DNA of 64,000 bases, taken from contig NZ_WARX01000006.1 of NCBI RefSeq assembly GCF_009720385.1, positions 310,001 through 374,000 of the forward strand, written 5' to 3'. The position numbers were made by a program, and so were the translations under genes. The notes beneath the pieces were generated by a model. That model searched no databases. It worked only from the letters and a program-made list of their open reading frames with translations, and had not been told where the DNA came from. The stretch is from Catellatospora vulcania (lineage in GTDB: Bacteria; Actinomycetota; Actinomycetes; Mycobacteriales; Micromonosporaceae). Positions 1,657 through 17,779 of the stretch are shown in pieces. Position 1 is the first letter of the stretch. The number at the start of each line of letters is the position of its first letter.

Positions 1657-1664
1657 CCCTGCCC

Positions 1665-1692: not shown

Positions 1693-1695
1693 GAT

Positions 1696-1758: not shown

Positions 1759-1768
1759 GCAAGCGAGG

Positions 1769-4561
1769 TCAGGCCAGGGCTTTGGCCAGCTCGATGCGGG
1801 AGCGGATGTTCAGGCGGGCGAAGATGTTGCGCATGTGGTGGTCGACGGTGCGCGGGCTGAGGAAGAGCTGCGCGGCGACCTCGCGGTTGGTGGCGCCCTC
1901 GCAGACCAGGCGGACGATCTGGAGTTGCTGGGCGGTGAGCACGTCGGCGGCGCGTACCGCGGGGGTGTCGACGGCCTCGCCGGCCGCGCGCAGTTCGGCG
2001 CGGGCCTGGTCGGCCCAGGCCGGGGCGTCGAGCTGGAGGAAGGTCTCCAGTGCGCGGTGCAGGTGCTCGCGGGCGTCGCGCGGGCGGCGGGCGCGGCGCA
2101 GCTCCTGGCCGTAGAGCAGCTCGGTGCGGGCCTGCTCGAAGTCGGCCTCCCCGGCCAGGTGCAGCGCCAGGGCCTGCTGGAAGTGCTGCTCGGCCTCGGC
2201 GCTGCCGCGCGGGGCGAGCAGCGCGTGGCAGCGGGCCGACAGCGCCCGGCGCACCGGGTCGCCGGTGGACGCCGCCCACAGGTCGAACCCGGCCAGCGCG
2301 GCCACCGCCTGCTCCCGGTCGTCGGCCCGGACCGCCGCCTCGACCAGCCACGGCGTGGCCATGGCCTGCACCACGATGTGGCCCCGGCCGGTGACGGGAC
2401 AGGCGATGCCCGCGATCCGGGCCACCGTGTCGGCGGGACGGCCCGCGATCAGGTCGAGCACCGCCAGGGCCCACTGGCTCAGCGCCTTGGGACGGTTGGT
2501 CTGCCCCGTGCCGGGCGCGACCTCGATCTCGCGGATGTGCCGCAGGGCCTGCTCGCGGTCGCCGCGGATGGCGCACAGCACGGCCAGCATCGCCTGGTGG
2601 TCCCCGGCGTAGTTGCCCTGCCCGCAGGCCCGCGCGGCACGAAGCCCGTGCAGGCTGGTGGCGGCCGCGGCGTCGTAGCGGCCGAGCCAGTACTCCGCGT
2701 ACGCGGTCATCTCCAGGGCCAGCGGCAGCGCGGACACGTCGCCGCTCTCCCGGGCGACCTCGACCGCGCGGGCGGCCAGCCGGTGCGCGCCGACGTCGTC
2801 GGCCAGCAGCAGCGCGGCAGCGCTGGCGCAGGTCAGCGGGGCGGCGGTGTCCAGTACGGCACCGAGTTCGACGACGCGTCGCAGCGGGCGGATCGCGCGG
2901 TGGTGACGGCCGCCGAAGGTGTACGCGAACCCGGCGATGTGCTCGAACACCACCTCCAGCTCGGGCGGGTCGTCGGGGCGGCGCAGCGCCGCGGCCCGGC
3001 TCGCCACATCGGCGTAGCGAGGGTAGTCGCCGGAGAAGCAGACGGCCTCCCCGGCCCGCATCAGCGCCAGCACGGCCAGCTCGCGTTCGGTGCCCGCGAG
3101 CCGGTCGACGATGGTCAGCAGCGACTCCGCGGCGTTGGCGGTGGCTCCGGCGCGCAGCTCGATCTCGCCGGACAGCACCTCGCTCTCGGCGGACACGACC
3201 CGGTCCCGGACCGTGGGCCGGGCCCGGCGCAGCAGGCTGCGGGCCCGGCCCGCGCTGCCGGACTGCCAGGCGTACCGGGCGGCGGTGACCAGCCGGCTGG
3301 CCGCTCCCCCGGGTTCGGTGGTGAGCTGTGCGGCGTGCTCCAGCGCCGCGGAGGCGCGCGAGTAGCCGCCGCCGGTGGCGGCCTCCTCCAGCTCCTCGGC
3401 CAGCTCCGCGTCGGGGCCGTGCGCGGCCGCGGCCAGGTGCACGGCGCGGCGCAGCCGCTCGGTGTCACCGTCGAGGACCTGCGCCAGGTGCAGGTGTGCG
3501 GCCCGGCGCTGGGCCAGGGGCGCTTCCTCGTACGCCAGGGCGCGGGCGATGGGCTGCGGGAACACGATGCCGCCGCGGCTGACCCGGACCAGCCCGCCGC
3601 GTTCGGCGGGGGCGAGGGCGGCGATGTCCACTCCGGAGCTGTGCGCGGCCCGCATCAGGCCCGCGGCGTCGGTCTCCTCGTCGGCCGCGGCCAGCAGCAG
3701 CAGCCAGCGGGTGTCCGGCCCCAGCCGGTCGAGCCGGGCCCGGTACGTGCGCAGCAGCTCGCTGTCGGCGGGCAGCCGGGTGGGCAGCGGAGCCTCCCCG
3801 GCGAGCTGGCTGTCGCTGAGCGACGCGGCGAGGTCGGTGAGCGCGCGCGGGTTGCCGCCGCCGAGCGCGGCCAGCGCGGTGAGCACCTCGTCGCCCGGGC
3901 GCACGCCCCGGACGCCCCACATCCGCGGTTCCTCGTCCGCCCCGGGGTGGTGCAGCAGGTCGGCCAGCAGGGCGCGGCCGGACTGCGGGTCCAAGGGGCG
4001 CAGCGGGAGCCGGGGCACGCCGTTGAGCGGCAGCTCGCCGGTGGAGGTGAGCAGCAGCGTCACCCGGTGGGCACGCACCCGGCGGGCGGTGAAGGCGATG
4101 GCGTCCAGCGACGGCCGGTCCAGCGCGTCGGCGTCGTCGACGCAGCACAGCACGGGCTGTTCCCGGCCCAGCGTGGCCAGCAGCGTCAGCACCGCCATGG
4201 ACAGGGCGAGCCGGTCGTCGGCGGCGCAGCCCTCGCCGGACAGGGCGCGGGTCAGCGCCCGCGCCTGGTGGTCGGGCAGGTCCGCGATCCGCTCGACGAC
4301 GGGCTGCAGCAGGCTCTGCAGCCCGGCGTACGGCAGGTCGGACTCCTCCTCCAGGCCGGTGGCCCACAGGTGCACGGTCCCGTCCGGGGTGCCGGCCGCC
4401 GCGTGGCGCAGCAGGGCGGTCTTGCCGCCGCCCAGGTCGCCGTGCAGGAGCAGCGCTCCGCCGACGCCGCCGGCCGCGCCCGCCTGGAGCTCGGCGATCG
4501 TCTGCTGCTCGCGGTCACGACCGCGCAGCCTTGGTATGTGCACTGTCGATGCATTTACCAT
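1769..4561 (-). CDS. Large ATP-binding LuxR-family regulator (LAL/MalT type)
   Basis: Transcriptional regulator of 930 residues. An N-terminal STAND-type ATPase has Walker A GDLGGGKT at residues 41-48 and a Walker B-like VLCCVDDAD. A long alpha-helical, TPR-like middle region follows. The C-terminal LuxR helix-turn-helix occupies about the last 60 residues (LTAQQLQIVRLVCEGATNRE, SPRTVDHHMRNIF). This is the usual LAL size and order. The ATG at 4561 was chosen because the ATPase domain (LRGRDRE) starts 11 residues later; the frame stays open upstream but through tetR antisense. It lies 53 bp downstream of tetR on the same strand. Probably a pathway activator of the surrounding catabolic genes (inference). 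Confidence 0.9.
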   Translation of the reverse strand: MVNASTVHIPRLRGRDREQQTIAELQAGAAGGVGGALLLHGDLGGGKTALLRHAAAGTPDGTVHLWATGLEEESDLPYAGLQSLLQPVVERIADLPDHQARALTRALSGEGCAADDRLALSMAVLTLLATLGREQPVLCCVDDADALDRPSLDAIAFTARRVRAHRVTLLLTSTGELPLNGVPRLPLRPLDPQSGRALLADLLHHPGADEEPRMWGVRGVRPGDEVLTALAALGGGNPRALTDLAASLSDSQLAGEAPLPTRLPADSELLRTYRARLDRLGPDTRWLLLLAAADEETDAAGLMRAAHSSGVDIAALAPAERGGLVRVSRGGIVFPQPIARALAYEEAPLAQRRAAHLHLAQVLDGDTERLRRAVHLAAAAHGPDAELAEELEEAATGGGYSRASAALEHAAQLTTEPGGAASRLVTAARYAWQSGSAGRARSLLRRARPTVRDRVVSAESEVLSGEIELRAGATANAAESLLTIVDRLAGTERELAVLALMRAGEAVCFSGDYPRYADVASRAAALRRPDDPPELEVVFEHIAGFAYTFGGRHHRAIRPLRRVVELGAVLDTAAPLTCASAAALLLADDVGAHRLAARAVEVARESGDVSALPLALEMTAYAEYWLGRYDAAAATSLHGLRAARACGQGNYAGDHQAMLAVLCAIRGDREQALRHIREIEVAPGTGQTNRPKALSQWALAVLDLIAGRPADTVARIAGIACPVTGRGHIVVQAMATPWLVEAAVRADDREQAVAALAGFDLWAASTGDPVRRALSARCHALLAPRGSAEAEQHFQQALALHLAGEADFEQARTELLYGQELRRARRPRDAREHLHRALETFLQLDAPAWADQARAELRAAGEAVDTPAVRAADVLTAQQLQIVRLVCEGATNREVAAQLFLSPRTVDHHMRNIFARLNIRSRIELAKALA

Positions 4562-4571
4562 GCCGACAGTG
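4541..4571 (-). promoter_or_regulatory. Dyad spanning the start codon of the LAL regulator
   Basis: Perfect 8-bp arms CACTGTCG and CGACAGTG are separated by 15 bp that include the ATG of the LAL gene. In mRNA this would put the start codon in the loop of a hairpin; in DNA it could be an operator. A second small dyad, GTTAC-N6-GTAAC, lies at about 4571-4586. No function is proven. Confidence 0.4.
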
Positions 4572-4614
4572 TTACCTATAAGTAACGACTTTGGAAAGAC
4601 GCAGACCGTGCCGC

Positions 4615-5235
4615 TTATGCCATTCCCGAAGCCATCGCGTTGAGCAGCAGCGCGGTCACGGTGCGCACCATGACGCCACGGGCGGCGTCGACGTCCAGGT
4701 CCAGCCCGTCGAGCAGCATCGACCAGGCCGGCCACATGGTGGAGGCGATCAGCGCGGCCAGCAGCTGGTCCCGTCCCGGCCCGGCCATCTCCAGCTCGGC
4801 CGCGAACAGCACGGACACCTCGTCGCGTACGCGGTCGATGTGCTTGAGCCGGTTGCGGCGCAGCTGGGCCGAGACCGGCTCGCGCATCGCCGCGGCGCGC
4901 GCCATCGGCGCGATCAGCTGCAGCAGCTCGGCGCGCTGGCGGCAGTACTCCTCCACCCGCCGGTGCAGCGGCAGCGACGGGTCCACCGGCTGGTGGGCGG
5001 CGTCCTGGCCGGCGAGCACGCGCGCGCCGCTGGCCTCGAACAGGGTCTCCATGTCGGAGAAGTTGGTCCACAGGGCGCGCAGCGAGACCCCGGCCCGCTC
5101 GGCGATGCGCTCACCGGTCGGCCGCAGGTCACCCTCAGTGATCAGGGCCAGGTGCGCGTCGACGATCGCGGCCCGGGTGCGCTCGGCACGGGCGGTGCGC
5201 CCGTCGACCCTGCCCTCGGTGCCGGTCCTGCTCAT
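4615..5235 (-). CDS. TetR-family transcriptional regulator
   Basis: DNA-binding regulator of 206 residues, the usual TetR length. The N-terminal helix-turn-helix spans roughly residues 14-60 (RAAIVDAHLALI, IAERAGVSLRALWTNFSDME), followed by an all-helical ligand-binding and dimerisation domain. Next on the same strand is the LAL regulator. A 15-bp dyad 51 bp upstream of the start (5286-5300) matches sites before the neighbouring SDR, thiolase, Liv transporter and acyl-CoA dehydrogenase genes. It therefore probably represses itself and the locus, released by an acyl-CoA or pathway intermediate. The family call is firm; the regulon is inferred from shared sites. Confidence 0.92.
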   Translation of the reverse strand: MSRTGTEGRVDGRTARAERTRAAIVDAHLALITEGDLRPTGERIAERAGVSLRALWTNFSDMETLFEASGARVLAGQDAAHQPVDPSLPLHRRVEEYCRQRAELLQLIAPMARAAAMREPVSAQLRRNRLKHIDRVRDEVSVLFAAELEMAGPGRDQLLAALIASTMWPAWSMLLDGLDLDVDAARGVMVRTVTALLLNAMASGMA

Positions 5236-5285
5236 ACCGCTCCTACCGACCTCGGCACGGTCCCACCGACCGCGCTGACCGAACG

Positions 5286-5300
5286 TGCACGCAGAGTGTA
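5286..5300. promoter_or_regulatory. Putative TetR operator before tetR
   Basis: TGCACGCAGAGTGTA, matching the dyad TGCACT-N3-AGTGCA found at four other promoters in this locus, with one mismatch in each half-site. It lies 51-65 bp upstream of the tetR start, suggesting autoregulation. Confidence 0.55.
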
Positions 5301-5365
5301 GTCGGGCCGCCCACGGCGCGATCCGGCCGATCGTCGCCGTCCCACTGCCCCGACGGGCGCGGACC

Positions 5366-6148
5366 TCACGAGTCCGACAGCCGTTGCTCCAGGTCCTGCT
5401 GCAACCGGTTCATGCCGCGCAGCCACCGGTCCGGGTCGGCGGCCCGCCGCTCGTAGTAGGCGGCCACCTCGGCGTGCGGCAGCACCAGGAAGGTGTCGCC
5501 GCGCAGCGCGGTGACCACGGCCTCGGCGCACTCCTCGGCGCTGATCGCGCCCGGGTCCAGCAGCACGCTGCCGCCGGGGCCGGACGACTCCAGCATCGGG
5601 GTGCGCACGCCCTGCGGGCACAGCGCCTGCACGACGACGCCGCGGTGGGCGTAGGTGGCCCGCAGCCATTCCGCGTGGGCCACGGCAGCGTGCTTGGTGA
5701 CCGCGTACGGCGCGTTGCCGAGCATGGTGAGCAGTCCCGCCGCGGACGCGGTCACCAGCAGGCGGCCCTGCCCGGCGGCCAGCCAGCGCGGCAGCAGCGC
5801 CTGCGCGGCCAGCACGTGCGACTGCACGTTGACCCGCCAGGCCAGGTCCCATGCGCCGGCCCCCTCGGCGGCCGGCGCGACACCGGCGTTGGCGCAGAAC
5901 AGGTCCAGCGCCCCGAACGACTCCCAGGCGTAGTCCACCAGGGCGGCCACCTGTGCCTCGTCGGCCACGTCGGCGGGGAAGGCCAGCCCGCCGGTCTCCG
6001 CGGCGACGCGCTGCGCCGCGACGGGGTCGCGGTCGTTGACGACCACCCGGGCGCCGGCCGCGGTGAAGCGGCGGGCCAGGGCGGCGCCGATGCCGGAGCC
6101 GGCGCCGGTGATGACGACCGCGGCGCCGTCGAGGTTGAGGGCGGTCAC
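5366..6148 (-). CDS. Short-chain dehydrogenase/reductase (SDR)
   Basis: Classical SDR oxidoreductase of 260 residues. The cofactor-binding motif TGAGSGIG is at residues 14-21, NAG at about 87-89, the catalytic serine near 135, and the YxxxK pair is Tyr148/Lys152. An aspartate after the second beta strand (VVNDRDP) favours NAD(H). It is transcribed divergently from the thiolase, and an operator-like dyad lies just upstream of its start. Together with the thiolase and acyl-CoA dehydrogenases it could supply the hydroxyacyl oxidation step of a beta-oxidation-like pathway; the actual substrate is unknown. Confidence 0.93.
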   Translation of the reverse strand: MTALNLDGAAVVITGAGSGIGAALARRFTAAGARVVVNDRDPVAAQRVAAETGGLAFPADVADEAQVAALVDYAWESFGALDLFCANAGVAPAAEGAGAWDLAWRVNVQSHVLAAQALLPRWLAAGQGRLLVTASAAGLLTMLGNAPYAVTKHAAVAHAEWLRATYAHRGVVVQALCPQGVRTPMLESSGPGGSVLLDPGAISAEECAEAVVTALRGDTFLVLPHAEVAAYYERRAADPDRWLRGMNRLQQDLEQRLSDS

Positions 6149-6174
6149 GTGGCTCCTCCATTAACGAGCTTAGT

Positions 6175-6189
6175 TGCACTGGCAGTGCC
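6175..6189. promoter_or_regulatory. Putative TetR operator before the SDR gene
   Basis: TGCACTGGCAGTGCC, a near-perfect dyad of the TGCACT-N3-AGTGCA type, 27-41 bp upstream of the SDR start in the divergent SDR/thiolase promoter region. It is followed by ATATTAG, as in the site at 15400 (ATATAAG). Confidence 0.65.
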
Positions 6190-6281
6190 GATATTAGGGA
6201 CCGCCGAGCAGGCGGTCAACGGAGCACGGTCATCGTGACATGCCCCACCTGGCGCGGCATTGACAGGGCCTTGTCGGAAGA

Positions 6282-6296
6282 TGCAGCTTGAGTGCA
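6282..6296. promoter_or_regulatory. Degenerate TetR operator before the thiolase gene
   Basis: TGCAGCTTGAGTGCA: the right half-site is perfect and the left half keeps four of six bases of the shared dyad. It lies 34 bp upstream of the thiolase start, so each side of the divergent promoter has its own site. Confidence 0.45.
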
Positions 6297-6329
6297 CAAA
6301 GTTAGCCGTACTCGCGAAAGGATCCGACC

Positions 6330-7550
6330 GTGCCTGAAGCTGTGGTGGTCGCCGCGGCCCGCTCCCCCATCGGCCGCGCCAACAAGGGCTCGCTGGCCAC
6401 GAAACGCCCCGACGACCTCGCCGCCGACATCGTGCGCGCGGCACTGGGCCAGGTGCCCGCCCTGGACCCGCGCGAGATCGGCGACCTGGTGCTCGGCTGC
6501 GGCCAGCCCGCCGGCGAGCAGGGCCACAACCTCGGCCGGGTGGTCGCCACCATGCTGGGGTTCGATCACCTGCCGGGCACCACCGTCAACCGATACTGCT
6601 CGTCGTCGCTGCAGACCACCCGGATGGCCCTGCACGCGATCCGGGCCGGCGAGGGCGACGTGTTCCTGTCGGTCGGCGTCGAGTCGGTGTCGCACTACGG
6701 CAACGGCCGCAGCGACGGCATGCCCGGCACCCGCAATCCGGTGTACGACGACGCGCTCGCGCGCACCGAACGGCGGGCCGGGCTCGCCGCGCCCACCTGG
6801 CACGACCCGCGTGAGGACGGCGAACTGCCCGACGTCTACATCGCGATGGGCCAGACCGCCGAGAACGTCGCCCAGCTCAGGGGCGTGTCCCGGCAGCTGC
6901 AGGACGAGTTCGCCTGCCGCTCGCAGAACCTGGCCGAGCAGGCGATCAAGGACGGGTTCTGGGCGCGCGAGATCACCCCTGTCACCCTGCCCGACGGCAC
7001 GGTGGTCAGCGCCGACGACGGCCCGCGCGCCGGGGTCACCATGTCCGCGCTGGCCGGGCTGGCCCCGGTGTTCCGGCCCGACGGCACCGTCACCGCGGGC
7101 AACTGCTGCCCGCTCAACGACGGCGCGGCGGCGCTGGTCATCATGTCCGACACCCGCGCCGCCGAGCTGGGCATCACCCCGCTGGCCCGGATCGTCTCGA
7201 CCGGCCTGTCCGCGCTCTCCCCCGAGATCATGGGCCTGGGCCCGGTGGAGGCCTCGAAGCAGGCCCTCGCCCGCGCCGGGATGTCCATCAACGACGTCGA
7301 CCTCGTCGAGATCAACGAGGCGTTCGCCGTCCAGGTCGTCGCCAGCGCCGCCGAACTGGGCCTCGACTGGGACAAGCTCAACGTCAACGGCGGCGCGATC
7401 GCCGTCGGCCACCCCTTCGGTATGACCGGCGCCCGCATCACCACCACCCTGCTCAACTCACTGAGCTGGCACGACAAGTCCATCGGCCTGGAGACCATGT
7501 GCGTCGGCGGCGGCCAGGGCATGGCCATGGTCCTCGAACGCCTCTCCTGA
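6330..7550 (+). CDS. Thiolase family acetyl-CoA C-acyltransferase
   Basis: Thiolase of 406 residues, likely cleaving a 3-ketoacyl-CoA with CoA to release acetyl- or propionyl-CoA. The acyl-accepting cysteine is Cys90 in NRYCSSSLQT. The NEAFAVQ motif, the GHPFGMTGAR histidine motif and the C-terminal CVGGGQGMA cysteine are all present, so the full catalytic set is intact. The length is normal for degradative thiolases. It is divergent from the SDR and carries its own operator-like site. It fits the final step of the CoA-ester catabolism implied by the acyl-CoA dehydrogenases and Liv-type importer nearby. Confidence 0.95.
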   Translation: MPEAVVVAAARSPIGRANKGSLATKRPDDLAADIVRAALGQVPALDPREIGDLVLGCGQPAGEQGHNLGRVVATMLGFDHLPGTTVNRYCSSSLQTTRMALHAIRAGEGDVFLSVGVESVSHYGNGRSDGMPGTRNPVYDDALARTERRAGLAAPTWHDPREDGELPDVYIAMGQTAENVAQLRGVSRQLQDEFACRSQNLAEQAIKDGFWAREITPVTLPDGTVVSADDGPRAGVTMSALAGLAPVFRPDGTVTAGNCCPLNDGAAALVIMSDTRAAELGITPLARIVSTGLSALSPEIMGLGPVEASKQALARAGMSINDVDLVEINEAFAVQVVASAAELGLDWDKLNVNGGAIAVGHPFGMTGARITTTLLNSLSWHDKSIGLETMCVGGGQGMAMVLERLS

Positions 7551-7563
7551 CCCCGCCCACCCC

Positions 7564-7598
7564 ATCGGCCCGGCACGCAGCTCGCGTGCCGGGCCGAT
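7564..7598 (+). terminator. Strong hairpin after the thiolase
   Basis: Perfect 15-bp stem (arms ATCGGCCCGGCACGC and GCGTGCCGGGCCGAT) with a 5-base loop, 13 bp downstream of the thiolase stop. Probable intrinsic terminator, possibly also serving the converging Liv operon. Confidence 0.75.
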
Positions 7599-7612
7599 GC
7601 TCACCGGGCGTT

Positions 7613-7667
7613 GATCATGAGGTTATGGCAGGGACACACCGTCGAGCCGTGCCATAAGTTCATGATC
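7613..7667. repeat. Palindromic repeat, family B, copy 1
   Basis: Imperfect palindrome with GATCATGA ends and arms resembling GATCATGAACTTATGGCACGG, with loop sequence ending CACCGTCGAG. It is almost identical over its whole length, loop included, to the copy at 17636-17690 and related to 17459-17513. It lies between the converging thiolase and Liv binding-protein genes, beside a separate terminator. Confidence 0.75.
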
Positions 7668-7681
7668 GACGCGGAAAGGGG

Positions 7682-8959
7682 TCAGGCTGCCGGGATGGTG
7701 TTGGCGGCGGGGGCGGGGCGCTCGTCCTTGAACTCGTTGACGGGGCCGGCGGCGGAGTCGGTCTCGTAGACGGGGCCGAAGAACTCCTGGTTGCCGGCGG
7801 TGACCTTGGTCAGCTTGCCGCCGCCCATGCCGGAGTGGTTCTCCTTGCTGTAGCGGAACGGGGCGAAGCCGGGGCCCTTGAAGCCGCCCTTCTCCACGGC
7901 CGCGATCAGGCCCTCACGGGTGAGGTCCTTGCCGGCCGCCAGCAGCGACTGCACGAACAGGTACGCCACCGACATGCCGTACACGGTGTTGCCGTTGAAC
8001 GGGGCGCTGCCGTTGTACTGGTCGTGGATCTTCTTGAACGCCGCGGTCCACGGGTCGTTCAGGTCCACCGGCGACGGCAGGTTGGAGATGCCGACCATGC
8101 CCTCCAGCAGGACCTTGCCCTCACCGAGCACCTTGGACAGGGTCAGGTAGTCCGAGCCGACGTTGGACACGACCCACGACGGCTTGAAGCCGAGGCGGGC
8201 GGCGGTGCCCACGGACAGCGCGGTGAAGCCCGGCACGGTGGCCAGCACGACGACCTCGCACCCGGCCGCCTTCAGGGCGCCGATCTGCGGGGCGACGTTC
8301 TGGTTGCTGGTGACGTACTTCTCCTTGGCGACCACGGCGCCCGCGCCGAGCACCTGCTCGACGCCGACCAGGCTGTCCCGGCCGAAGTCGTCGTCCTGGC
8401 CGAAGAAGCAGGTCTTCTTGCCCGGGTGGGTGGCCTTGATGTGGGTGGCCAGGATCTTGCCCTCGACCGTGTAGTCGGTGTTGAACCCGAACGTGCCCGG
8501 GTACTTGTCCGGCTGGTTCCAGCTGCGGCTGCCGGAGGCGACGAACAGGTCCGGCACCCGGTTGGTCTTCAGGAAGTCCAGCACGCCGGTGTGGGTGGGG
8601 GTGCCCAGGCCGTTGAGGACGGCGAAGACCTTGTCCTCCAGCACCAGCTTGCGCACCACGGTCTGGGTGTTGGCCGGGTTGTAGCCGTCGTCCAGGAACT
8701 TGTACGTGATCTTGCGGCCGTTCACGCCGCCGTTGGCGTTGACGTAGTCGAAGTACGCCTTGCTCGCCGGGGCGATCTCGGAGTAGCCGGCCGCGGCGGG
8801 ACCGGTCAGCGGCATGTGCGTGCCGACCACGATCTCGCCGGCGGTCACGCCGGGCACCTCGGCCGGCGGGGTGTTCGCGTCCTCACTGCAGGCCGCGACA
8901 GCCGCGAGCAGCACGGCGGCCGTGGCGAGCGAGAGCCCGCGTCGGGTCAGGGCGTTCAT
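7682..8959 (-). CDS. ABC transporter substrate-binding lipoprotein (Liv type)
   Basis: Extracellular binding protein of 425 residues for a branched-chain-amino-acid-type (HAAT) importer. A signal peptide ends in the lipobox AVAAC (Cys24), giving a membrane lipoprotein. The mature part starts ITVG-like (GEIVVGTHMPLTGPAA) and has the periplasmic-binding fold features of LivJ homologues (FGQDDDFGRD, ALKAAGCEVVVLAT). The ATG at 8959 was chosen because the signal peptide begins there, although the frame is open further upstream. It is the last gene of a five-gene importer operon. Given the neighbouring acyl-CoA enzymes, the ligand may be a carboxylic acid rather than an amino acid (inference). Confidence 0.93.
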   Translation of the reverse strand: MNALTRRGLSLATAAVLLAAVAACSEDANTPPAEVPGVTAGEIVVGTHMPLTGPAAAGYSEIAPASKAYFDYVNANGGVNGRKITYKFLDDGYNPANTQTVVRKLVLEDKVFAVLNGLGTPTHTGVLDFLKTNRVPDLFVASGSRSWNQPDKYPGTFGFNTDYTVEGKILATHIKATHPGKKTCFFGQDDDFGRDSLVGVEQVLGAGAVVAKEKYVTSNQNVAPQIGALKAAGCEVVVLATVPGFTALSVGTAARLGFKPSWVVSNVGSDYLTLSKVLGEGKVLLEGMVGISNLPSPVDLNDPWTAAFKKIHDQYNGSAPFNGNTVYGMSVAYLFVQSLLAAGKDLTREGLIAAVEKGGFKGPGFAPFRYSKENHSGMGGGKLTKVTAGNQEFFGPVYETDSAAGPVNEFKDERPAPAANTIPAA

Positions 8960-9048
8960 GGGAAACACCGATCCTTCCGTCACGATTACATTGATGATTA
9001 TCGATATAACAAGGGTGGAGCGGTTGGTACGGTGGTGCGGCCGTGAGG

Positions 9049-10167
9049 TCAGCGGGCAGGCGCCCGCCGCCGGACCCTCGCGCCGATCCGGCGCAGCAGG
9101 CCCTGTACACCGCCCGGGGCGGCGATCATCACGACGATCAGGGTCAGCCCGAACACGGCCAGCGGGAGGTTGCCCTCCAGCCGCTGCGCCACCGCGGGCG
9201 ACAGGGACACCAGCTGCGCGCTGTCGTGGGTGAGGTCGGGCAGCGCGACGAGCAGGACCGCTCCCCACACCGCGCCCGACAGACTGCCCAGGCCGCCGAT
9301 CACGACGGCCATCAGCAGGAACAGCGACAGGGTCAGCGAGAACGCGCCCGGCGAGACACTCTGTGCCAGCAGCGCCATCAGGCCGCCGCCGAGCCCGGCG
9401 CTGGCCGCGCTCACCACGAAGGCCAGCACCTGGGTACGTCCGACGTGGATGCCGGCCAGCCGGGCGGCCACCTCGTCGTCGCGTACCGCGCGCAGGTTGC
9501 GCCCGACCCGGCTGCGCACCAGGTTGGCCAGCAGCAGCATGGTCAGCAGCGCCCCGGTCAGGGCCACCCAGGCCTGCCAGCGCTCGTTCGGGAAGTACAG
9601 CCCGAGCGACAGCGGCGGCGGCTCGACAGCCACCGACAGCCCCTGCTCGCTGTTGAAGGTCTCGTCGAAGGTGACCGTCGCCGCGGGCACCGCGACCGCC
9701 ACGGCCAGCGTCACGCCGGCCAGGTACGGCCCGCGCAGCCGGGCGGCGGCCAGCCCGATGACCGCGCCCGCGGCCATGGTGACCAGCACCCCCAGCGCCA
9801 ACGACAGCGGCAGCACTTGGTTGCCGGTGATCCCCTTGTCGGCGAACGCGTTCTGCGCCAGCGCCACGGTGTACGCGCCGACGGCCATCAGCGCGCCGTG
9901 CCCCAGCGACAGCTGCCCGTTCATGCCGACCAGCAGGGTCAGCCCGGCCGTCGCGCACAGGTAGGCGGCGACCGTGGCCAGCTGGAAGTTGCGGAACGGG
10001 TCGAGCTGCTGGGTGAGCAGGAACAGCAGCACCCCGGCGAGCACCGCGAGCACCAGGTGACGCAGCAGCGTCGACCCGCTCAGGAAGCCCGGCAGCGCCA
10101 CGGAGCGCTTCGGCGCAGGAGCGGGCGCCGCCGCAGGTGCGGCCGGAGTGATGGTCTGCTCGCTCAT
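9049..10167 (-). CDS. livM: Branched-chain-type ABC transporter permease LivM
   Basis: Integral membrane permease of 372 residues with about ten hydrophobic segments and a short Ala/Pro-rich cytoplasmic N-terminus. The LivM signatures GMNGQLSLGHGALMAVGAYT and the GGLGSLSGAVWGA segment of the coupling region are present. The start overlaps the stop of the preceding LivH permease (ATGA), and the binding-protein gene follows after about 90 bp. It pairs with LivH to form the translocation path. The family assignment is firm; the transported compound is unknown. Confidence 0.93.
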   Translation of the reverse strand: MSEQTITPAAPAAAPAPAPKRSVALPGFLSGSTLLRHLVLAVLAGVLLFLLTQQLDPFRNFQLATVAAYLCATAGLTLLVGMNGQLSLGHGALMAVGAYTVALAQNAFADKGITGNQVLPLSLALGVLVTMAAGAVIGLAAARLRGPYLAGVTLAVAVAVPAATVTFDETFNSEQGLSVAVEPPPLSLGLYFPNERWQAWVALTGALLTMLLLANLVRSRVGRNLRAVRDDEVAARLAGIHVGRTQVLAFVVSAASAGLGGGLMALLAQSVSPGAFSLTLSLFLLMAVVIGGLGSLSGAVWGAVLLVALPDLTHDSAQLVSLSPAVAQRLEGNLPLAVFGLTLIVVMIAAPGGVQGLLRRIGARVRRRAPAR

Positions 10168-11042
10168 GCCTGCCTCGCCACGGTGCTGGAGAAGAGGCCG
10201 CCCGGACGGACCAGCAGCACCGCGAGCAGCAGCACGAGCACTGCCATCGGGGTGACGTCGCTGCCCAGGTAGCCGCTGACGTACGAGAGGATCAGGCCGA
10301 CGGTCAGGCCGCCGACCACCGCGCCCGGTGGGCTGTCCAGCCCGCCGACCACGGCCGCGGTGAACGCGGACACGAACACCAGGTCCATGGCGTGCGGGTG
10401 CAGGCCCAGCTCGGTGGGGATGACCAGCAGCGCGGCGAGCGCGCCGACCGCCGACGCCAGCGCCCAGCCCAGTGTCAGCATGCCGCCGACGTTCACGCCG
10501 AGCAGCCTTGACACCTCGGGGGCGAAGGCCGAGGCGCGCATGCGCAGGCCGACGGAGGTACGCGTGAACAGCAGCGCGAGCCCCAGCAGCACCAGCAGCA
10601 CGGCCCCGAAGACGAACAGGTCGTAACGCGACAGCAGCGGCACGTCGCCCACGCTCAGCGCGTTGCGGCTGAACGGGGTGCCCGCGGGCAGGAACTCGTT
10701 GCCGTACACCATGCCCAGCACCGCCTGCACGACCAGGACCAGGCCCAGTGCCACGATCACCTCGGACAGCGGCGAGCTGTGGTCCACGAACCGCATCACC
10801 GCCCGCTCGACGACCACGCCGATCAGCAGCCCGCCGACCAGCGCCGCGGCGAAGCCCAGCCAGTACGAGCCGGTCGCCGAGGTGACGCTGTAGCCGGCGT
10901 ACGCCGCGGCCACCGCCATCGCCCCCTGGGCGAAGTTGACGATGCGCGCGGCCCGCCAGATCAGCACCAGGGCCAGCGCGAACGCGGCCAGCACCGCCCC
11001 CTTGGACAGGCCGTCGAAGGTGAGGAAGACGAAGCGGTCCAA
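10164..11042 (-). CDS. livH: Branched-chain-type ABC transporter permease LivH
   Basis: Integral membrane permease of 292 residues, typical for LivH. Hydrophobic segments run throughout. Family motifs include IVNFAQGAMAVAAAYAGY near the N-terminus and FTAAVVGGLDSPPGAVVGG in the C-terminal coupling region. It is third in the operon livG-livF-livH-livM-binding protein: 34 bp separate it from livF and it overlaps livM by 4 bp. It would form the heterodimeric membrane channel with LivM. Confidence 0.93.
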   Translation of the reverse strand: MDRFVFLTFDGLSKGAVLAAFALALVLIWRAARIVNFAQGAMAVAAAYAGYSVTSATGSYWLGFAAALVGGLLIGVVVERAVMRFVDHSSPLSEVIVALGLVLVVQAVLGMVYGNEFLPAGTPFSRNALSVGDVPLLSRYDLFVFGAVLLVLLGLALLFTRTSVGLRMRASAFAPEVSRLLGVNVGGMLTLGWALASAVGALAALLVIPTELGLHPHAMDLVFVSAFTAAVVGGLDSPPGAVVGGLTVGLILSYVSGYLGSDVTPMAVLVLLLAVLLVRPGGLFSSTVARQA

Positions 11043-11076
11043 CGGAAACCTCCTTCTAGCAGTCGTAGGGGCGGGC

Positions 11077-11802
11077 TCAGAAGCCCAGGTAGGCGTGGCG
11101 CAGTTCCTCGTCGTCGCGCAGCCGGTCGGCGCTGGTCGCCGTGACGATCCGGCCCAGCGACATGACCACCGCCTCGTCGGCCACCGACAGCGCGCTGCGC
11201 ACGTTCTGCTCCACCAGCAGCACGGTCAGCCCGGTGCTGTCGCGCAGCTGCCGCAGCAGCGCCATGATCTGCGCGATCACGCGCGGTGCGAGGCCGAGCG
11301 ACGGCTCGTCCAGCAGCAGCAGCTTGGGGCGGGCCACCAGGGCGCGGCCCAGCGCCAGCATCTGCCGCTCGCCGCCGGAAAGCTGGTGCCCGGCGCTGCG
11401 GCGGCGCTGCGCGAGCGGCTCGAACAGCTCGTACACCTCGGTCAGCGCCTTCGCCGCGTCCTCGCGGTCGCGCCGCCACAGGCCGCCGAGCCGCAGGTTC
11501 TCGTCGACGGTCAGCTCGGCGACCACGCCGCGGCCCTCCGGCACGTGCGCCATGCCCCGGCGCACCAGCTGCTCCACCGGCACGTCGCGCAGCGGCTGCC
11601 CGCCGTAGACGATCTCGCCACCACTCGGCCGGACCAGCCCGGACAGGGTGCGCAGCAGCGTGGTCTTGCCCGCGCCGTTGGCCCCGAGCACCGCCGCGAT
11701 GGTCCCGGCCCGCACGGTGAGGTCCACCTCCTGCAGTACGGGGGCTGCGCCGTACCCGGCGGTCAGGCCCTTCACCTGCAGGATCACGTCGTCAGCGGTC
11801 AT
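11077..11802 (-). CDS. livF: Branched-chain-type ABC transporter ATPase LivF
   Basis: Nucleotide-binding subunit of 241 residues, the normal LivF size. Walker A is GANGAGKTT, the signature is LSGGERQMLALGRAL, and Walker B is LLLLDEPSLGLAP, followed by an intact switch histidine segment (VLLVEQNV). It overlaps livG by 4 bp upstream. With LivG it energises uptake through LivH/LivM at the cytoplasmic face. Confidence 0.95.
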   Translation of the reverse strand: MTADDVILQVKGLTAGYGAAPVLQEVDLTVRAGTIAAVLGANGAGKTTLLRTLSGLVRPSGGEIVYGGQPLRDVPVEQLVRRGMAHVPEGRGVVAELTVDENLRLGGLWRRDREDAAKALTEVYELFEPLAQRRRSAGHQLSGGERQMLALGRALVARPKLLLLDEPSLGLAPRVIAQIMALLRQLRDSTGLTVLLVEQNVRSALSVADEAVVMSLGRIVTATSADRLRDDEELRHAYLGF

Positions 11803-12641
11803 GCCGATGCCTCCTGGCGGCTGAGGGACGGGGTGGCCGCGTCGACCTCGGCGCCGAGGTAGGCCTCGGCCACGGCGGGGTCGTCGCGCACCTCCTGCGG
11901 GGTGCCGGTGGCGATGAGCCGTCCGAAGTCGAGCACGGCGATCCGGTCGCAGACAGCCATCACCAGGTCCATGTGGTGCTCGACCAGCATCACCGAGCAG
12001 CCCGCCTCGGCCGGCAGGGTCGTGATCAGCGCCCCCAGCTCCTCGATGTCCTGCGCGCCCAGCCCGCCCGCGGGCTCGTCCAGCAGCAGCAGGCGCGGGC
12101 GGGCGGCCAGCGCGCGGGCCAGCGCGACCCGCTTGCCGACGGCATAGGGCAGCGTGCCGGGCAGCGCTCCCGCATACGCCGCGACGTCGAAGCGTTCGAG
12201 CAGCGTCATCGCCTGCTCGCGCAGCCGCCGCTCGTCGCGGTCGCTGCGGGGCAGGCCGAGCAGCCCGGAGAAGAAGCCGGCGCGGGCGGTGCAGGTCGCG
12301 CCCGCCATCACGTTCTCCAGCACGGTCAGCCCGCGGAACAGCCCGACGCCCTGCAGGGTGCGGGCGATGCCGAGGCCGGCCAGCCGGTGCGGCGCCGGCG
12401 ACAACCGCGTGCCGTTGAGCTCCAGCATGCCCGAGGTCGGCCGGACCAGCCCGCAGACCACGTTGAACAGCGTGGTCTTGCCGGCCCCGTTCGGGCCGAT
12501 GACGCCGACCACCTGGCCGGGGGCCACCTCGAGGGACACGTCGTCCAGGGCGGTCAGCCCGCCGAAGCGCACCCCGATGCCCCGCAGGAACAGGCTGTGG
12601 CCTGCCGCGTGTGTCTCGCCGGACGGCGGTTTCATCGTCAC
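11799..12641 (-). CDS. livG: Branched-chain-type ABC transporter ATPase LivG
   Basis: Nucleotide-binding subunit of 280 residues and the first gene of the importer operon. Walker A GPNGAGKTTLFN, Walker B LLLLDEPAGGL and the H-loop segment MLVEHHMD are intact. The ABC signature is unusual: where most LivG proteins have a serine/glycine LSxGQ-like motif, this one reads LPYAVGKRVALARAL. The protein may still work, because LivG family members vary here. An operator-like dyad lies 46-60 bp upstream of the start, placing the transporter in the putative TetR regulon. Confidence 0.93.
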   Translation of the reverse strand: MTMKPPSGETHAAGHSLFLRGIGVRFGGLTALDDVSLEVAPGQVVGVIGPNGAGKTTLFNVVCGLVRPTSGMLELNGTRLSPAPHRLAGLGIARTLQGVGLFRGLTVLENVMAGATCTARAGFFSGLLGLPRSDRDERRLREQAMTLLERFDVAAYAGALPGTLPYAVGKRVALARALAARPRLLLLDEPAGGLGAQDIEELGALITTLPAEAGCSVMLVEHHMDLVMAVCDRIAVLDFGRLIATGTPQEVRDDPAVAEAYLGAEVDAATPSLSRQEASA

Positions 12642-12686
12642 CTCTACAGGTCGGGATGTGGTCGATGTGAGGGAGGGCTAAGTTAT

Positions 12687-12701
12687 TACACTAGGAGTGT
12701 A
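12687..12701. promoter_or_regulatory. Putative TetR operator before the Liv operon
   Basis: TACACTAGGAGTGTA is a perfect 15-bp dyad (6-bp arms, 3-bp spacer) of the same form as the sites at 5286, 6175 and 15400. It lies 46 bp upstream of the livG start. The remaining 12702-12863 shows no gene. Confidence 0.65.
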
Positions 12702-12863
12702 GGTTTGAGAAACGGCTCGTCAATACCCTTGTTACGACCCCGTGACCTCACCGCACGAACTCGTTCAAATCATCTGTATCCGCAACCGCGACTGCCCCGG
12801 CATCCTTTCCGGACACCGCCAAGTCGATCTCTATATGCACACTCGGTGAAGCAACTTCCGTGA

Positions 12864-12939
12864 CCCGGCCTGCAGTTTCGGGGCAACTGCGGCTACCGCG
12901 TCGTGCATTCGCGCACTTTCCCCGAAACTGCAGGCCGGG
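12864..12939. repeat. Palindromic repeat, family E, copy 1
   Basis: Nearly perfect inverted repeat with about 20-bp arms (CCCGGCCTGCAGTTTCGGGG and its complement) around a 36-bp spacer. It lies just downstream of the acyl-CoA dehydrogenase stop. A weaker relative is at 25250-25314. It may serve as terminator of the acyl-CoA dehydrogenase operon. Confidence 0.7.
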
Positions 12940-12962
12940 GGGCGGGCGCGTGGGGTGTCGGG

Positions 12963-14177
12963 TCAGGCGGGGGTGAGGTCGGTGAGGGTGGCGAGGGTGG
13001 CGCGGTGGTGGGCGGCGGTGCCGTAGGCGACGGCAGTGCTCTTGGCTCGCTTCAGGTAGAGGTGGGCCGGGTGTTCCCAGGTGAAGCCGATGCCGCCGTG
13101 CATCTGCACGCACTCCTCCGCCGCCCGCAGCGCCACCGGGCCGCAGTGCGCCTGGGCCAGGGCCGCCGCCAGCCGCGCGTCGGGATCACCCTGCGCGGCG
13201 CAGGCCGCGGCATGGCGGGCCACCGCCCTCGCCTGCACCAGCTCCACCCACAGATCGGCGAGCCGGTGCTTGAGCGCCTGGAACGAGCCCACCGGCCGAC
13301 CGAACTGGTAGCGGGTCTTCAGGTGCGCGACCGTCGTGTCCAGACACCACTGGGCCAGCCCGAGCTGCTCGGAGGCCAGCAGCGCGGCGCCCGCGACCAG
13401 TGCGGCGTCGAGCGTCGAGGCGGCCCGATCACCGGCGGCCAGCAGCCGAGCGGGCGCGTTCCACATCGAGATGTCGCAGAGTGGCCGCGTCTCGTCCAGA
13501 GACACCACCGGCGTCCGGGTCAGCCCGGCCGCGTCCGCTTCGACCGCGAACAGCGCCCCGCCCGCCGGCACCAGCAGCACCCGCGCTCGCAGCGCGTCGG
13601 CGATGCTGCTCACCGTGCCGTTGAGCAGTGGACTGCCGTCCGCCGCCGTCGAAACCTCGACGCTCGGCAGCCGCAGCCGCGACTCCGGCGACGATCCGGA
13701 ACCCGGGGCCGACCCGAACACCGCCGACCGGGCTCCGGCCGTCGCTCCCCTGGCAGACACCGCCGACGATCCTGTCGGCGGCACGGACCCGGCCGGGCCG
13801 ACGTCGAACGGCAGGGCCAACGCGATGACCTCGCCACCCGCCAGTTCCCGCAGCAGCTCGCTCTCGCCGAGGTGCAGCAGGAGCTGCGCGGCGACGGCGG
13901 TGCCCAGGTACGGCACGGGTGCGGCGGCGCGGCCGAGTTCCTCCAGCACCACCGCGGTCTCGGCGAGGGTCGCGCCCGCGCCGCCGAGGTGCTCGGGCAC
14001 GGCGAGGGCGGCCAGCCCGGTCTCCACGGACAGCAGCCGCCACAGGTCGGCGTCGTCGGGTTCCGGGCTCTCGGCGACCTTGAGCACGCGCGCCCACGGG
14101 GCGTGGTCGGCGAGCATGGCCCGCACCGAGTCGCGCAGCTGCTCCTGCTCGTCGGTGTAGCGCAGGTCGAGGGTCAT
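12963..14177 (-). CDS. Acyl-CoA dehydrogenase, second subunit (FadE-like)
   Basis: FAD-dependent acyl-CoA dehydrogenase fold of 404 residues. The N-terminal helical domain covers about residues 1-120, and the C-terminal helical domain holds YQFGRPVGSFQALKHRLAD and the conserved HGGIGFTWEHPAHLYLKR segment. The middle beta domain is odd: residues about 126-172 form a Ser/Gly/Ala-rich stretch, and the usual flavin-contacting motifs of that domain are not recognisable. The start overlaps the stop of the preceding acyl-CoA dehydrogenase (ATGA). Such adjacent divergent pairs form alpha2-beta2 enzymes in steroid side-chain degradation (FadE26/27, FadE28/29), so a heteromer is likely here. Confidence 0.9.
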   Translation of the reverse strand: MTLDLRYTDEQEQLRDSVRAMLADHAPWARVLKVAESPEPDDADLWRLLSVETGLAALAVPEHLGGAGATLAETAVVLEELGRAAAPVPYLGTAVAAQLLLHLGESELLRELAGGEVIALALPFDVGPAGSVPPTGSSAVSARGATAGARSAVFGSAPGSGSSPESRLRLPSVEVSTAADGSPLLNGTVSSIADALRARVLLVPAGGALFAVEADAAGLTRTPVVSLDETRPLCDISMWNAPARLLAAGDRAASTLDAALVAGAALLASEQLGLAQWCLDTTVAHLKTRYQFGRPVGSFQALKHRLADLWVELVQARAVARHAAACAAQGDPDARLAAALAQAHCGPVALRAAEECVQMHGGIGFTWEHPAHLYLKRAKSTAVAYGTAAHHRATLATLTDLTPA

Positions 14178-15361
14178 CGGGGCAGGTCCTTCCAGGCGAC
14201 GCCGGTGTCCTGTCGGGGCTCGGCGGGCAGGCCGAGCACCCGCTCGGCGACGATGTTGCGCAGCACCTCGGAGGTGCCGCCCTCGATGGAGTTGCCCTTG
14301 GCCCGCAGCCAGCGATACGTGGGACCGCGGCCGAGCAGGTCGAGTTCCTCGGGCCGGTCGGCCCGCCAGTGGTCGTGGCGCAGGCCCTCCGCGCCGAGCA
14401 GCTCCACCTCGGCGCCGGAGATCTGCTGGGTGAGCGCGGCGAAGGCGAGCTTCATCGCCGAGCCCTCGGGGCCGGGCTCGCCCGCGGCCAGTTGCTGGCG
14501 CAGCCGGATGCCGGTCAGCCGCAGCGCCTCGGCACGCACCCACAGCCGCAGCACCTCGTCGTGCAGGGCGGGGGTGCGCAGCTCGGGCCGCGTACGCCAG
14601 GTGCGGGTGAGCACGCCGATCATCCCGCCCTCGCGGGGCAGTGCAGCCCCGCCGATGGCCACCCGCTCGTTCATCAGCGTGGTGCGCGCCACCGCCCAGC
14701 CCTCGCCGACCGCGCCGAGCCGGAGCTCGTCGCCCAGCCGTACGCCGGACAGGAAGACCTCGTTGAACTCGGCCTCGCCGGTGGCCTGCCGCAGCGGCCG
14801 CACCTCGACGCCGGGGGCGTGCATGTCGCACAGGAAATAGGTCAACCCGGCGTGTTTCGGCGCGGCCGGGTCGGTGCGGGCGAGCAGGATGCCCCAGCGC
14901 GCCTGGTGCGCCATCGACGTCCACACCTTCTGCCCGTCGACGAGCCAGCCGTCGCCGTCGCGTACCGCGCGGGTGGCGACGCCGGCCAGGTCGGACCCGG
15001 CGCCGGGCTCGCTGAACAGCTGGCACCAGACCTCCTGCGCCGTCCACAGCGGACGCAGGAAGCGCGCGCGCTGCTCGGCCGTGCCGTGGCGCAGGATCGT
15101 CGGGGCGGCCATACCCAGGCCGATGCCGATGCGGCGCGGGCTGTTGTCCGGCGCGCCCGCCGCGGCGAAGCGCTGGTCCACCACCGGTTGCAGCACCCTC
15201 GGTGCACCGAGTCCGCCGAGACCGACCGGGTAGTGCACCCACGCCAGCCCGGCGTCGAACCGTGCCCGCAGGAACTCCAGCCGGTCGCCCGCCACATCGT
15301 GCCCGGCCAGGAAGCCGTCGACCCGCTCCTGCAGGTCCTCGGCCGTAACCGGCTCCGCCAC
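14174..15361 (-). CDS. Acyl-CoA dehydrogenase, first subunit (FadE-like)
   Basis: FAD-dependent acyl-CoA dehydrogenase of 395 residues that would introduce an alpha-beta double bond into an acyl-CoA. It keeps the flavin-domain segment WCQLFSEPGAGSDLAG, the WLVDGQKVWTSMAHQARW core and the C-terminal EGGTSEVLRNIVAERVLGLP. The GTG at 15361 was chosen because a GGGAGGG ribosome site lies just upstream and because a longer start would run through the operator at 15400-15414. It overlaps the second dehydrogenase gene, suggesting an obligate partner. Confidence 0.92.
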   Translation of the reverse strand: MAEPVTAEDLQERVDGFLAGHDVAGDRLEFLRARFDAGLAWVHYPVGLGGLGAPRVLQPVVDQRFAAAGAPDNSPRRIGIGLGMAAPTILRHGTAEQRARFLRPLWTAQEVWCQLFSEPGAGSDLAGVATRAVRDGDGWLVDGQKVWTSMAHQARWGILLARTDPAAPKHAGLTYFLCDMHAPGVEVRPLRQATGEAEFNEVFLSGVRLGDELRLGAVGEGWAVARTTLMNERVAIGGAALPREGGMIGVLTRTWRTRPELRTPALHDEVLRLWVRAEALRLTGIRLRQQLAAGEPGPEGSAMKLAFAALTQQISGAEVELLGAEGLRHDHWRADRPEELDLLGRGPTYRWLRAKGNSIEGGTSEVLRNIVAERVLGLPAEPRQDTGVAWKDLPR

Positions 15362-15399
15362 GTGCCCTCCCACCCTCGGTCCCCGTTGAGCAAACTTGA

Positions 15400-15414
15400 T
15401 GCACTGCGAGTGCA
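15400..15414. promoter_or_regulatory. Putative TetR operator before the acyl-CoA dehydrogenase operon
   Basis: TGCACTGCGAGTGCA is a perfect dyad and the best example of the shared motif, 39 bp upstream of the GTG start of the first acyl-CoA dehydrogenase. It is followed by ATATAAG, resembling the flank of the SDR site. Confidence 0.7.
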
Positions 15415-15591
15415 ATATAAGCGCGGGACGGCCACGACGGAAGAGGGCGGGCACCGGCGATGATCGCGAGCCGCAAGACCGGTGATTTCGCCGATGTCTC
15501 CGGCGCGTTACGACCGGACAGTGTCCTGATCACCCAGCGTGCATATCGGTGCGTCCGATCGTCGCCGGGACAGGACGAGAGGAGACGTCAG

Positions 15592-15801
15592 GTGCCCGAA
15601 CTCGGCGCACGTCCGGCACGGCAGGGATGGCGGTGGCTGCTGCTGATCCCGATCCTCGCCCCGCTGCCGGTCGGCCTCTACAACCGGCTGGAGCCGCAGC
15701 TGTGGGGCGTCCCGTTCTTCTACTGGTACCAGGTGGGCTGCGCGGTGCTGGCGATGGCCGTCACCACGCTCGTACACCGGCTGACCAGGCCGGGGCGGTG
15801 A
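15592..15801 (+). CDS. Small membrane protein, DUF3311 family
   Basis: Small protein of 69 residues with two predicted membrane helices (WLLLIPILAPLPVGLYN and YWYQVGCAVLAMAVTTLV) joined by a short loop containing a conserved-looking WGVPFFYWYQ. DUF3311 proteins characteristically precede sodium:solute symporter genes and are thought to be accessory subunits. The GTG at 15592 was chosen for its GAGGAG ribosome site. Its stop overlaps the symporter start (GTGA). The molecular role is unknown. Confidence 0.85.
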   Translation: MPELGARPARQGWRWLLLIPILAPLPVGLYNRLEPQLWGVPFFYWYQVGCAVLAMAVTTLVHRLTRPGR

Positions 15802-17444: not shown

Positions 17445-17458
17445 CCCCCCGCCTGGTC

Positions 17459-17513
17459 GATCATGAACTTATGGCACGGTTCACCGGCGTGTCCCCGCCA
17501 CAACTTCATGATC
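17459..17513. repeat. Palindromic repeat, family B, copy 2
   Basis: GATCATGAACTTATGGCACGG arm paired imperfectly with a CACAACTTCATGATC arm, starting 15 bp after the symporter stop. First of three palindromes packed into the 335-bp gap 17445-17779, which shows no gene. Confidence 0.7.
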
Positions 17514-17544
17514 ACCAACGCCGGCGGCGTCGGTCCGGGGCGAT

Positions 17545-17605
17545 GATCGCCGTTTGAGGTCAAAACCTGTGGCCAGACCGCAGATCATGACCAGAAACAG
17601 CGATC
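17545..17605. repeat. Palindromic repeat, family C, copy 1
   Basis: Imperfect palindrome whose arms read GATCGCCGTTTGAGGTC and, on the other strand, GATCGCTGTTTCTGGTC. A related, stronger copy sits at 37786-37864. It lies between two family B copies. Confidence 0.6.
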
Positions 17606-17635
17606 TATGCGGCGCCACGGGCCGCCCTGCTAGTC

Positions 17636-17690
17636 GATCATGAGGTTAGGGCAGCGACACGCCGTCGAGCCGTGCCATAAGTTCATGATC
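17636..17690. repeat. Palindromic repeat, family B, copy 3
   Basis: Nearly identical to the copy at 7613-7667 (only a few differences over 55 bp, loop included) and in the same orientation. It lies before the convergent end of the transglycosylase-like gene. Confidence 0.75.
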
Positions 17691-17779
17691 GACGAGGGAG
17701 TGCAAGCGCGAACAACTCCGGCCGCACCTGTCCGAGGACGGGCGCGGCCGGAGCTGCGTACTGCGGTCACTGCAATATG

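Follow-up and report, generated by a model that had tools for sequence, protein, structure and literature searches.

In a 64,000-nucleotide stretch of the genome of the soil actinobacterium Catellatospora vulcania (contig NZ_WARX01000006.1, positions 310,001 to 374,000; this whole stretch is referred to here as the window), a gene for a TetR-family regulator (TetR) was found in a locus that also holds genes for a Liv-type importer and for acyl-CoA oxidation. Analysis of this locus suggests, with a probability of roughly 85%, that TetR is a pathway-specific repressor which acts on six transcription units through one inverted repeat (the dyad), and that these units are jointly induced for the import and oxidation of a carboxylic acid. 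That the locus forms a regulon under a local TetR repressor is well supported by the sequence comparisons. A first-pass annotation of this DNA had proposed one TetR regulon made up of the importer, two acyl-CoA dehydrogenases, a short-chain dehydrogenase (SDR), a thiolase and the regulator. Conservation of the dyad and its co-occurrence with TetR bear this out, and a gene for a LuxR-type regulator likely has to be added.

From the sites, their conservation and their co-occurrence with TetR we infer the following mechanism. TetR would bind one dyad, of about TATwTGCACT-N3-AGTGCAaATA, at six promoters, namely those of tetR itself, the SDR, the thiolase, the Liv-type importer operon, a two-subunit acyl-CoA dehydrogenase (ACAD1/ACAD2) and the LuxR-type regulator. 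Bound TetR would block RNA polymerase because the operators appear to overlap or abut the −10 region. An imported acid would be converted to its CoA thioester, which would bind the repressor, and the six units would then open together. Import would be followed by one dehydrogenation by ACAD1/ACAD2, oxidation by the SDR and cleavage by thiolysis; as feedback, additional repressor and LuxR regulator would be made.

Operator sites and their association with TetR

The dyad was scored as the 15-mer TGCACT-N3-AGTGCA, with mismatches counted to this consensus. All five dyads of the first-pass annotation (O2 to O6, Table 1) were found where it had placed them, with 2, 1, 2, 2 and 0 mismatches, and they lie 27–51 bp before a start codon, counted from the nearest base of the site, within the 25–65 bp that had been given. 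A scan of the window revealed a sixth dyad, absent from that list, at the LuxR start (O1). The genome (8.83 Mb) contains 152 dyads at ≤2 mismatches, and six of them fall in this 10.9-kb stretch against 0.19 expected (Poisson P(≥6) = 5.1e-8; for the five noted dyads alone, P(≥5) = 1.6e-6). At ≤3 mismatches the whole window is barely enriched (29 versus 19.95 expected, standard deviation 4.45), with 5 of 100 shuffles reaching 29. The form TACACT-N3-AGTGTA, at ≤1 mismatch, has a single occurrence in the genome, at livG. Outside the locus, nine one-mismatch dyads were detected, seven of them in predicted coding sequences, one in a tRNA gene and one just before a putative infC. In the genome-wide scan proposed earlier as a source of targets, the clustering at the locus beats background, and the nine outside sites yield no new target. 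At two mismatches the scan is too noisy to serve as a target finder, about 50 of the 152 places being listed, and the check for targets elsewhere was confined to these nine sites; judged from them, this genome's regulon seems confined to the locus.

Of 200 sampled Micromonosporaceae genomes, 122 held a relative of TetR, and TetR loci were taken from 49 of these 122 for conservation counts, in which a dyad had to lie ≤200 bp before the gene with ≤2 mismatches, each TetR genome was counted once and the expectation came from shuffles. The dyad preceded the thiolase gene in 14 of 14 genomes, livG in 24 of 32, ACAD1 in 15 of 19, SDRb in 13 of 23 and SDR in 8 of 27 (≤0.27 expected for each gene), although the SDR or SDRb and thiolase starts often share one divergent gap, so that their counts are not independent. 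No dyad was found under the same limits before LivK, LivM, LivH, LivF, ACAD2, APH, ACAD11, ADH, ALDH, ACAD0, SDR0 or TetR2, a set of twelve genes which includes those internal to operons. The conserved sequence extends beyond the 15-mer both at livG (about AAA--TACACT-N3-AGTGTAA-TA) and at ACAD1 (about TATAT-TGCACT-N3-AGTGCAAATA), and several of the more distant relatives have, near the thiolase, counterparts of the degenerate O4 with one mismatch. It should be noted that two of the loci (L056 and L057) probably duplicate genomes G125 and G109.

At the LuxR gene a variant dyad, TGCATC-N3-AGTGCA, which differs from the main type by two bases, was found 8 bases past the first base of the start codon in 15 of the 17 genomes with a LuxR match in the TetR locus. 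In the first upstream count this gene had scored 1 of 15, because only its first 10 bases were included and the site lies on codons 3–8. All 15 dyads use GCA plus an NNA codon, although in these genes GCA accounts for 4% of alanine codons and A occupies 5% of third positions. This argues for selection acting on the DNA itself, but the adjoining codons at the start of the gene are likewise A/T-rich, and the start codon is a prediction. The LuxR gene is thus likely a further target of the regulon. Two other repeats were observed in the start region at 4541–4586, an 8-base inverted repeat CACTGTCG (4541) / CGACAGTG (4564) and GTTAC-N6-GTAAC (4571, 4582).

The association of dyad and regulator was then compared between genomes with and without TetR, a genome being called TetR-negative when none of its candidates, of which up to 15 were scored, matched at E ≤ 1e-15. 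Of the 66 genomes with an ACAD1 match, 35 were examined for that gene, and these took in 8 of the 10 that are TetR-negative. Within 1.8 kb upstream of the ACAD1 operon, the dyad was present in 25 of 27 TetR-positive and in 0 of 8 TetR-negative genomes (Fisher p 1.9e-6); a hand tally by genus gave 12 of 14 versus 0 of 6 (p 7e-4), and in one genus (g31) a TetR-positive and a TetR-negative genome each obey the same rule. The dyad was also kept in seven of the eight genomes whose TetR gene lies outside the fetched ACAD1 stretch; TetR and ACAD1 are on different contigs in five of these seven, and in two they share a contig at a distance of about 2 Mb. At livG, the dyad was present in 28 of 35 TetR-positive and 0 of 4 TetR-negative genomes (p 0.004). 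As the genomes are related, all these p-values are indicative only. Left out were ACAD1 of L057 and LivG of L065 (locus ends), ACAD1 of G057 and G103 (51–52% identity, below the 64% limit) and, as paralogues (52–54%), the LivG-like genes of genus g12 (G011, G069, G085) and of G026.

A scan of 11.3 kb for a sigma-70-type consensus promoter returned two matches versus 0.2 expected, at the SDR and livG operators. The SDR site, TTGACC-N17-TAATAT, has a −10 which ends one base before O3, and in the livG site, TTGACG-N16-TACACT, the −10 is one half of O5. The perfect dyad O6 at ACAD1 is directly adjoined by a TTATAT hexamer, with no good −35. An overlap or contact of operator and −10 region thus appears clear at the SDR and livG and weaker at ACAD1. 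The flank ATAT-AG, earlier described as common to the sites, was present at two of the five only (SDR and ACAD1), beside the operator as a −10-like hexamer, and its ATAT is most readily interpreted as a −10 element.

The predicted structure of TetR has nine helices but is of modest quality (mean pLDDT 67.7, pTM 0.53, 3 sequences); its C-terminal half is of low confidence and the pocket uninformative. In a Foldseek search the 50 matches listed looked like TetR-type regulators by title (probability 1.00, but TM only 0.38–0.60), with two matches at E ≤ 0.001. An N-terminal helix-turn-helix and an all-helical fold place the modelled protein in the TetR family, despite a Pfam TetR_N score just below cut-off. 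Two Catellatospora relatives carry a TetR 96–97% identical, and a phylum-wide search found the protein in 7 of 396 genomes; apart from the genome of the window, these show 34–45% identity.

Several observations weigh against this account. The search span at ACAD1 was widened from 200 bp to 1.8 kb after an extra gene had been seen before ACAD1; with 200 bp the counts were 15 of 27 versus 0 of 8, and 0 of 8 for the genomes with TetR elsewhere. The narrow span missed sites because the extra gene, an SDR gene in the three loci opened, precedes ACAD1. Two TetR-positive genomes (G068, G102) have no dyad within 1.8 kb of the ACAD1 operon, and seven of the 35 TetR-positive genomes have none at livG, six of the seven showing a weaker TACACT variant. 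Two of the 28 livG matches look like chance sites (G008, at 929 bp, and G192), and the assemblies of two of the four TetR-negative genomes in the livG comparison (G005, G025) are incomplete. TetR's own promoter carries the dyad in 9 of 48 TetR genomes (0.17 expected), a low rate. At ≤3 mismatches some of the twelve non-target genes match as well, most of all ACAD11 (7 of 22 versus 1.2 expected), and the contrast with target genes is less clean. The promoter scan gave no match at tetR, the thiolase, LuxR or ACAD1, no CoA ligase or enoyl-CoA hydratase was recognised in the part of the open reading frames of the locus that was scanned, and TetR_N scores 22.6 bits against a cut-off of 24. The CoA-ester inducer is proposed by precedent only.

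Genes of the locus and the probable substrate

The features of the locus are given in Table 1. A scan of window positions 1–20000 against Rfam gave no match.

Table 1. Candidate operators (O1 to O6) and genes of the TetR locus in window coordinates.
Feature	Position	Strand	Description	Basis or match
O1 operator	4539..4553		TGCACTGTCGATGCA; over LuxR-gene codons 3-8	2 mismatches
O2 operator	5286..5300		Upstream of tetR (putative autoregulation)	2 mismatches; start codon 51 bp away
O3 operator	6175..6189		Upstream of SDR	1 mismatch; start codon 27 bp away
O4 operator	6282..6296		Upstream of thiolase, degenerate	2 mismatches; start codon 34 bp away
O5 operator	12687..12701		Upstream of livG, TACACT-N3-AGTGTA	2 mismatches; start codon 46 bp away
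O6 operator	15400..15414		Upstream of ACAD1, perfect dyad	0 mismatches; start codon 39 bp away
LuxR	1769..4561	-	LuxR/LAL-type regulator (AAA_16 + GerE), predicted sixth target	Domain matches
TetR	4615..5235	-	TetR-family repressor, proposed regulator	TetR_N just under cut-off, co-occurrence, predicted structure
SDR	5366..6148	-	Short-chain dehydrogenase	
Thio	6330..7550	+	Thiolase	NCBIfam NF005890
LivK	7682..8959	-	Liv-type substrate-binding protein	
LivM	9049..10167	-	Permease	
LivH	10164..11042	-	Permease	
LivF	11077..11802	-	ATPase, putative	Operon position and reading of translation
LivG	11799..12641	-	ATPase, first gene of importer operon	
ACAD2	12963..14177	-	Acyl-CoA dehydrogenase	Best solved match Tcur3481
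ACAD1	14174..15361	-	Acyl-CoA dehydrogenase	Best solved match Tcur3483

The thiolase exceeds the cut-off of its model (PRK07851; 756 bits versus 580). For ACAD1 and ACAD2 the best solved matches are the two chains of one complex, Tcur3483 and Tcur3481 (PDB 6wy8/6wy9), which is presumably a heterotetramer and a steroid-degrading enzyme. Adjacent, unlike subunits which match both chains of one complex suggest a two-subunit (alpha2beta2) enzyme; the window pair reaches about 118–120 bits, at which substrate specificity is not transferable. Across the gap that holds the perfect dyad, and divergent from ACAD1, lie a putative DUF3311-like small protein and an MctP-like symporter (window 15592–17444), the latter scoring 577 bits, under its cut-off of 625.

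With moderate confidence, the substrate is expected to be a branched, cyclic or gamma-hydroxylated carboxylic acid or its lactone. Such an acid is favoured because of the dehydrogenase matches, because of an ACAD11-type pair found in relatives and because markers of steroid-ring degradation were not found. In 21 of 49 TetR genomes an APH kinase and an ACAD11-type dehydrogenase lie no more than 6 kb from TetR, most of the rows listed having them between that gene and SDR, and one such protein (L069) scores 410–413 bits to ACAD11 chains. In bacteria the LvaA/LvaC pair converts 4-hydroxyacyl-CoA via a phosphate ester, according to the part of the source covered (PMC11342911), and the presence of a pair of this kind beside TetR in relatives is a hint of gamma-hydroxy acids or lactones.

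It may be asked whether the core substrate is itself a 4-hydroxy acid or gamma-lactone, levulinate-like, with the locus representing a reduced ACAD11-type pathway. The relatives' pair, its ACAD11 scores, the known LvaA/LvaC chemistry and the symporter flanking the locus all agree with this. However, the kinase/ACAD11 pair is absent from the window's locus, and the genome's own pair is found on another contig without the operator, so that the kinase/ACAD11 step would fall outside the regulon here. To our knowledge, moreover, neither an ACAD1/ACAD2 pair nor a Liv importer is part of the known lva pathway, and this narrower substrate is regarded as a tentative possibility. The genome's own pair lies in a row of MaoC-like, putative quinone-reductase-like, APH kinase and ACAD11-type genes (L107, 8059–11750) that adjoins another putative TetR gene. 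It was considered as a distant member of the regulon and rejected, there being no dyad at ≤2 mismatches before its operon.

A steroid or bile-acid side-chain or ring pathway under a KstR2-like repressor is a rather improbable reading. It draws on the Tcur3483/Tcur3481 matches and on IpdE2 (NF050027) being the nearest NCBIfam model of ACAD2, but the latter match, at 204 bits, is far under the cut-off of 450 and no protein in the window's genome exceeds that cut-off, in a search which had no positive control (14 control genomes gave no match above it). KshA_C was likewise not found in this genome (99.8% complete), whereas the same search was positive in 8 of 61 family genomes, one of them weakly; these serve as the positive control, as the 14 control genomes had no match above cut-off. 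Five of the eight carry TetR (G017, G029, G042, G055, G056) and three do not. The KstR2 motif AnCAAGnnCTTGnT, as given in the part of the source covered, also differs from the dyad (PMC3068626). Steroid ring degradation by the window's genome is therefore unlikely. Steroid pathways are reported in some Actinoplanes and Salinispora, in the part of that source covered, and other species of the family may thus have one (PMC4810484). The bulky acid suggested in the first-pass annotation is accordingly retained only in part: its steroid or bile-acid form loses ground with the missing KshA_C and the low IpdE2 score, and a bulky or alicyclic acid may still be read from the resemblance to Tcur3481/Tcur3483.

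Other regulators and a likely exchange at livG

The dyad could belong to another regulator of the cluster, either the LuxR/LAL protein or a neighbouring second TetR-type regulator (TetR2), with TetR a bystander. Fifteen of the fetched genomes have a LuxR gene whose start bears the dyad, and TetR2 is present in 23 of 54 TetR loci. Against this, dyads precede ACAD1 or livG in loci without a LuxR match (for example L071, L073, L074 and L079), TetR2 has a separate and different dyad, and TetR2 loci that lack TetR also lack the dyad at ACAD1 and livG, which leaves such a reassignment very improbable. Still less credible is a chance clustering of a G+C-rich palindrome, for which the 152 genome copies and the 29 versus 20 dyads of the window might speak but which is already contradicted by the clustering at the locus (P(≥5) 1.6e-6) and by positions kept across genera against ≤0.27 expected per gene.

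Control of the target operons by TetR, as preferred here, can be followed further at livG. A matrix for the TetR2 dyad was trained on TetR2-linked sites away from livK and 43 genomes were scored. In four TetR-negative genomes (livG above 57% identity) the livG promoter dyad scored 25–31 bits, and the best TetR-positive genome reached 18.2; four more TetR-negative genomes, with a livG paralogue (52–54%), fell outside the top 12 of the ranking. Letters common to the two dyads let the top TetR-positive rows beat their shuffles as well, so it is the gap in score that separates the groups. In three of the four genomes livK has a TetR2-like gene next to it; in the fourth the contig is short. A swap of regulator at livG in TetR-negative genomes is likely, and in TetR-negative genera the ACAD1 operon is simply without a site. 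It seems reasonably probable, with less assurance than the regulon itself, that the importer operon has been handed between two TetR repressors in evolution, with TACACT-N3-AGTGTA at livG where TetR is present and the TetR2 dyad AACTAnCnnTGTTAGTTT where it is absent, and that TetR also commands LuxR via an operator in the first codons. If so, this is a natural example of operator replacement at one promoter.

Left of the window, two copies of the TetR2 dyad AAACTnGC-N3-GCnAGTTT were seen (L016, 16171–16189 and 16923–16941), the first copy being one base off. TetR2 sits there with an acyl-CoA dehydrogenase/SDR group on one side and, on the other, ALDH/ADH genes which extend into the window, and together with its dyads it looks like a neighbouring regulon. 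In the paralogous Liv/ACAD11 cluster of genus g12, ATACCGnCCGGnCGGTAT was observed upstream of LivG in three of three loci (L143, L144, L145); it represents a third operator type and is not exact in a locus of another genus (L142).

Comparison with known systems

Micromonosporaceae is a family of antibiotic producers, and for the TetR found in 122 of the 200 sampled genomes the analysis yields a candidate operator with its list of targets, and a regulon that can be tested across the family. It also narrows the search for the substrate and ties the Liv importer to a two-subunit dehydrogenase and, in relatives, to a 4-hydroxyacyl-CoA module. The latter recalls the LvaA/LvaC and ACAD10/ACAD11 modules for 4-hydroxy acids; it stands beside TetR in 21 of 49 genomes and not in the window's locus. 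Among the papers listed from an open-licence PMC library there was no description of the operator or regulon, which is a weak negative.

The targets of KstR2 include a thiolase and acyl-CoA dehydrogenases. In the part of the source covered, KstR2 of mycobacteria and rhodococci is likewise a local TetR repressor, with a short dyad mostly 22–82 bp before several operons of its cluster, its own gene included (PMC3068626). The window's TGCACT-N3-AGTGCA is not the KstR2 operator, steroid C/D-ring genes were not shown in the window, and the window regulon includes an importer. Thermus FadR, also of the TetR family, has a half-site TTRNACY compatible with the window's TTGCACT, and one potential target operon, TTHB016-TTHB014, resembles the window regulon in content with an SDR-type dehydrogenase and an acyl-CoA dehydrogenase, beside a phosphotransferase; its operator TTRNACYNRGTNYAA differs in a centre of 1 base versus 3 in the window, and the parts of the source covered contain no Liv importer or two-subunit dehydrogenase (PMC5597230). 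On comparative evidence the regulon is regarded as real and as working like KstR2 or FadR-type local repressors. Systems of this type are well known, and the interest of this one lies in the turn that its evolution seems to have taken.

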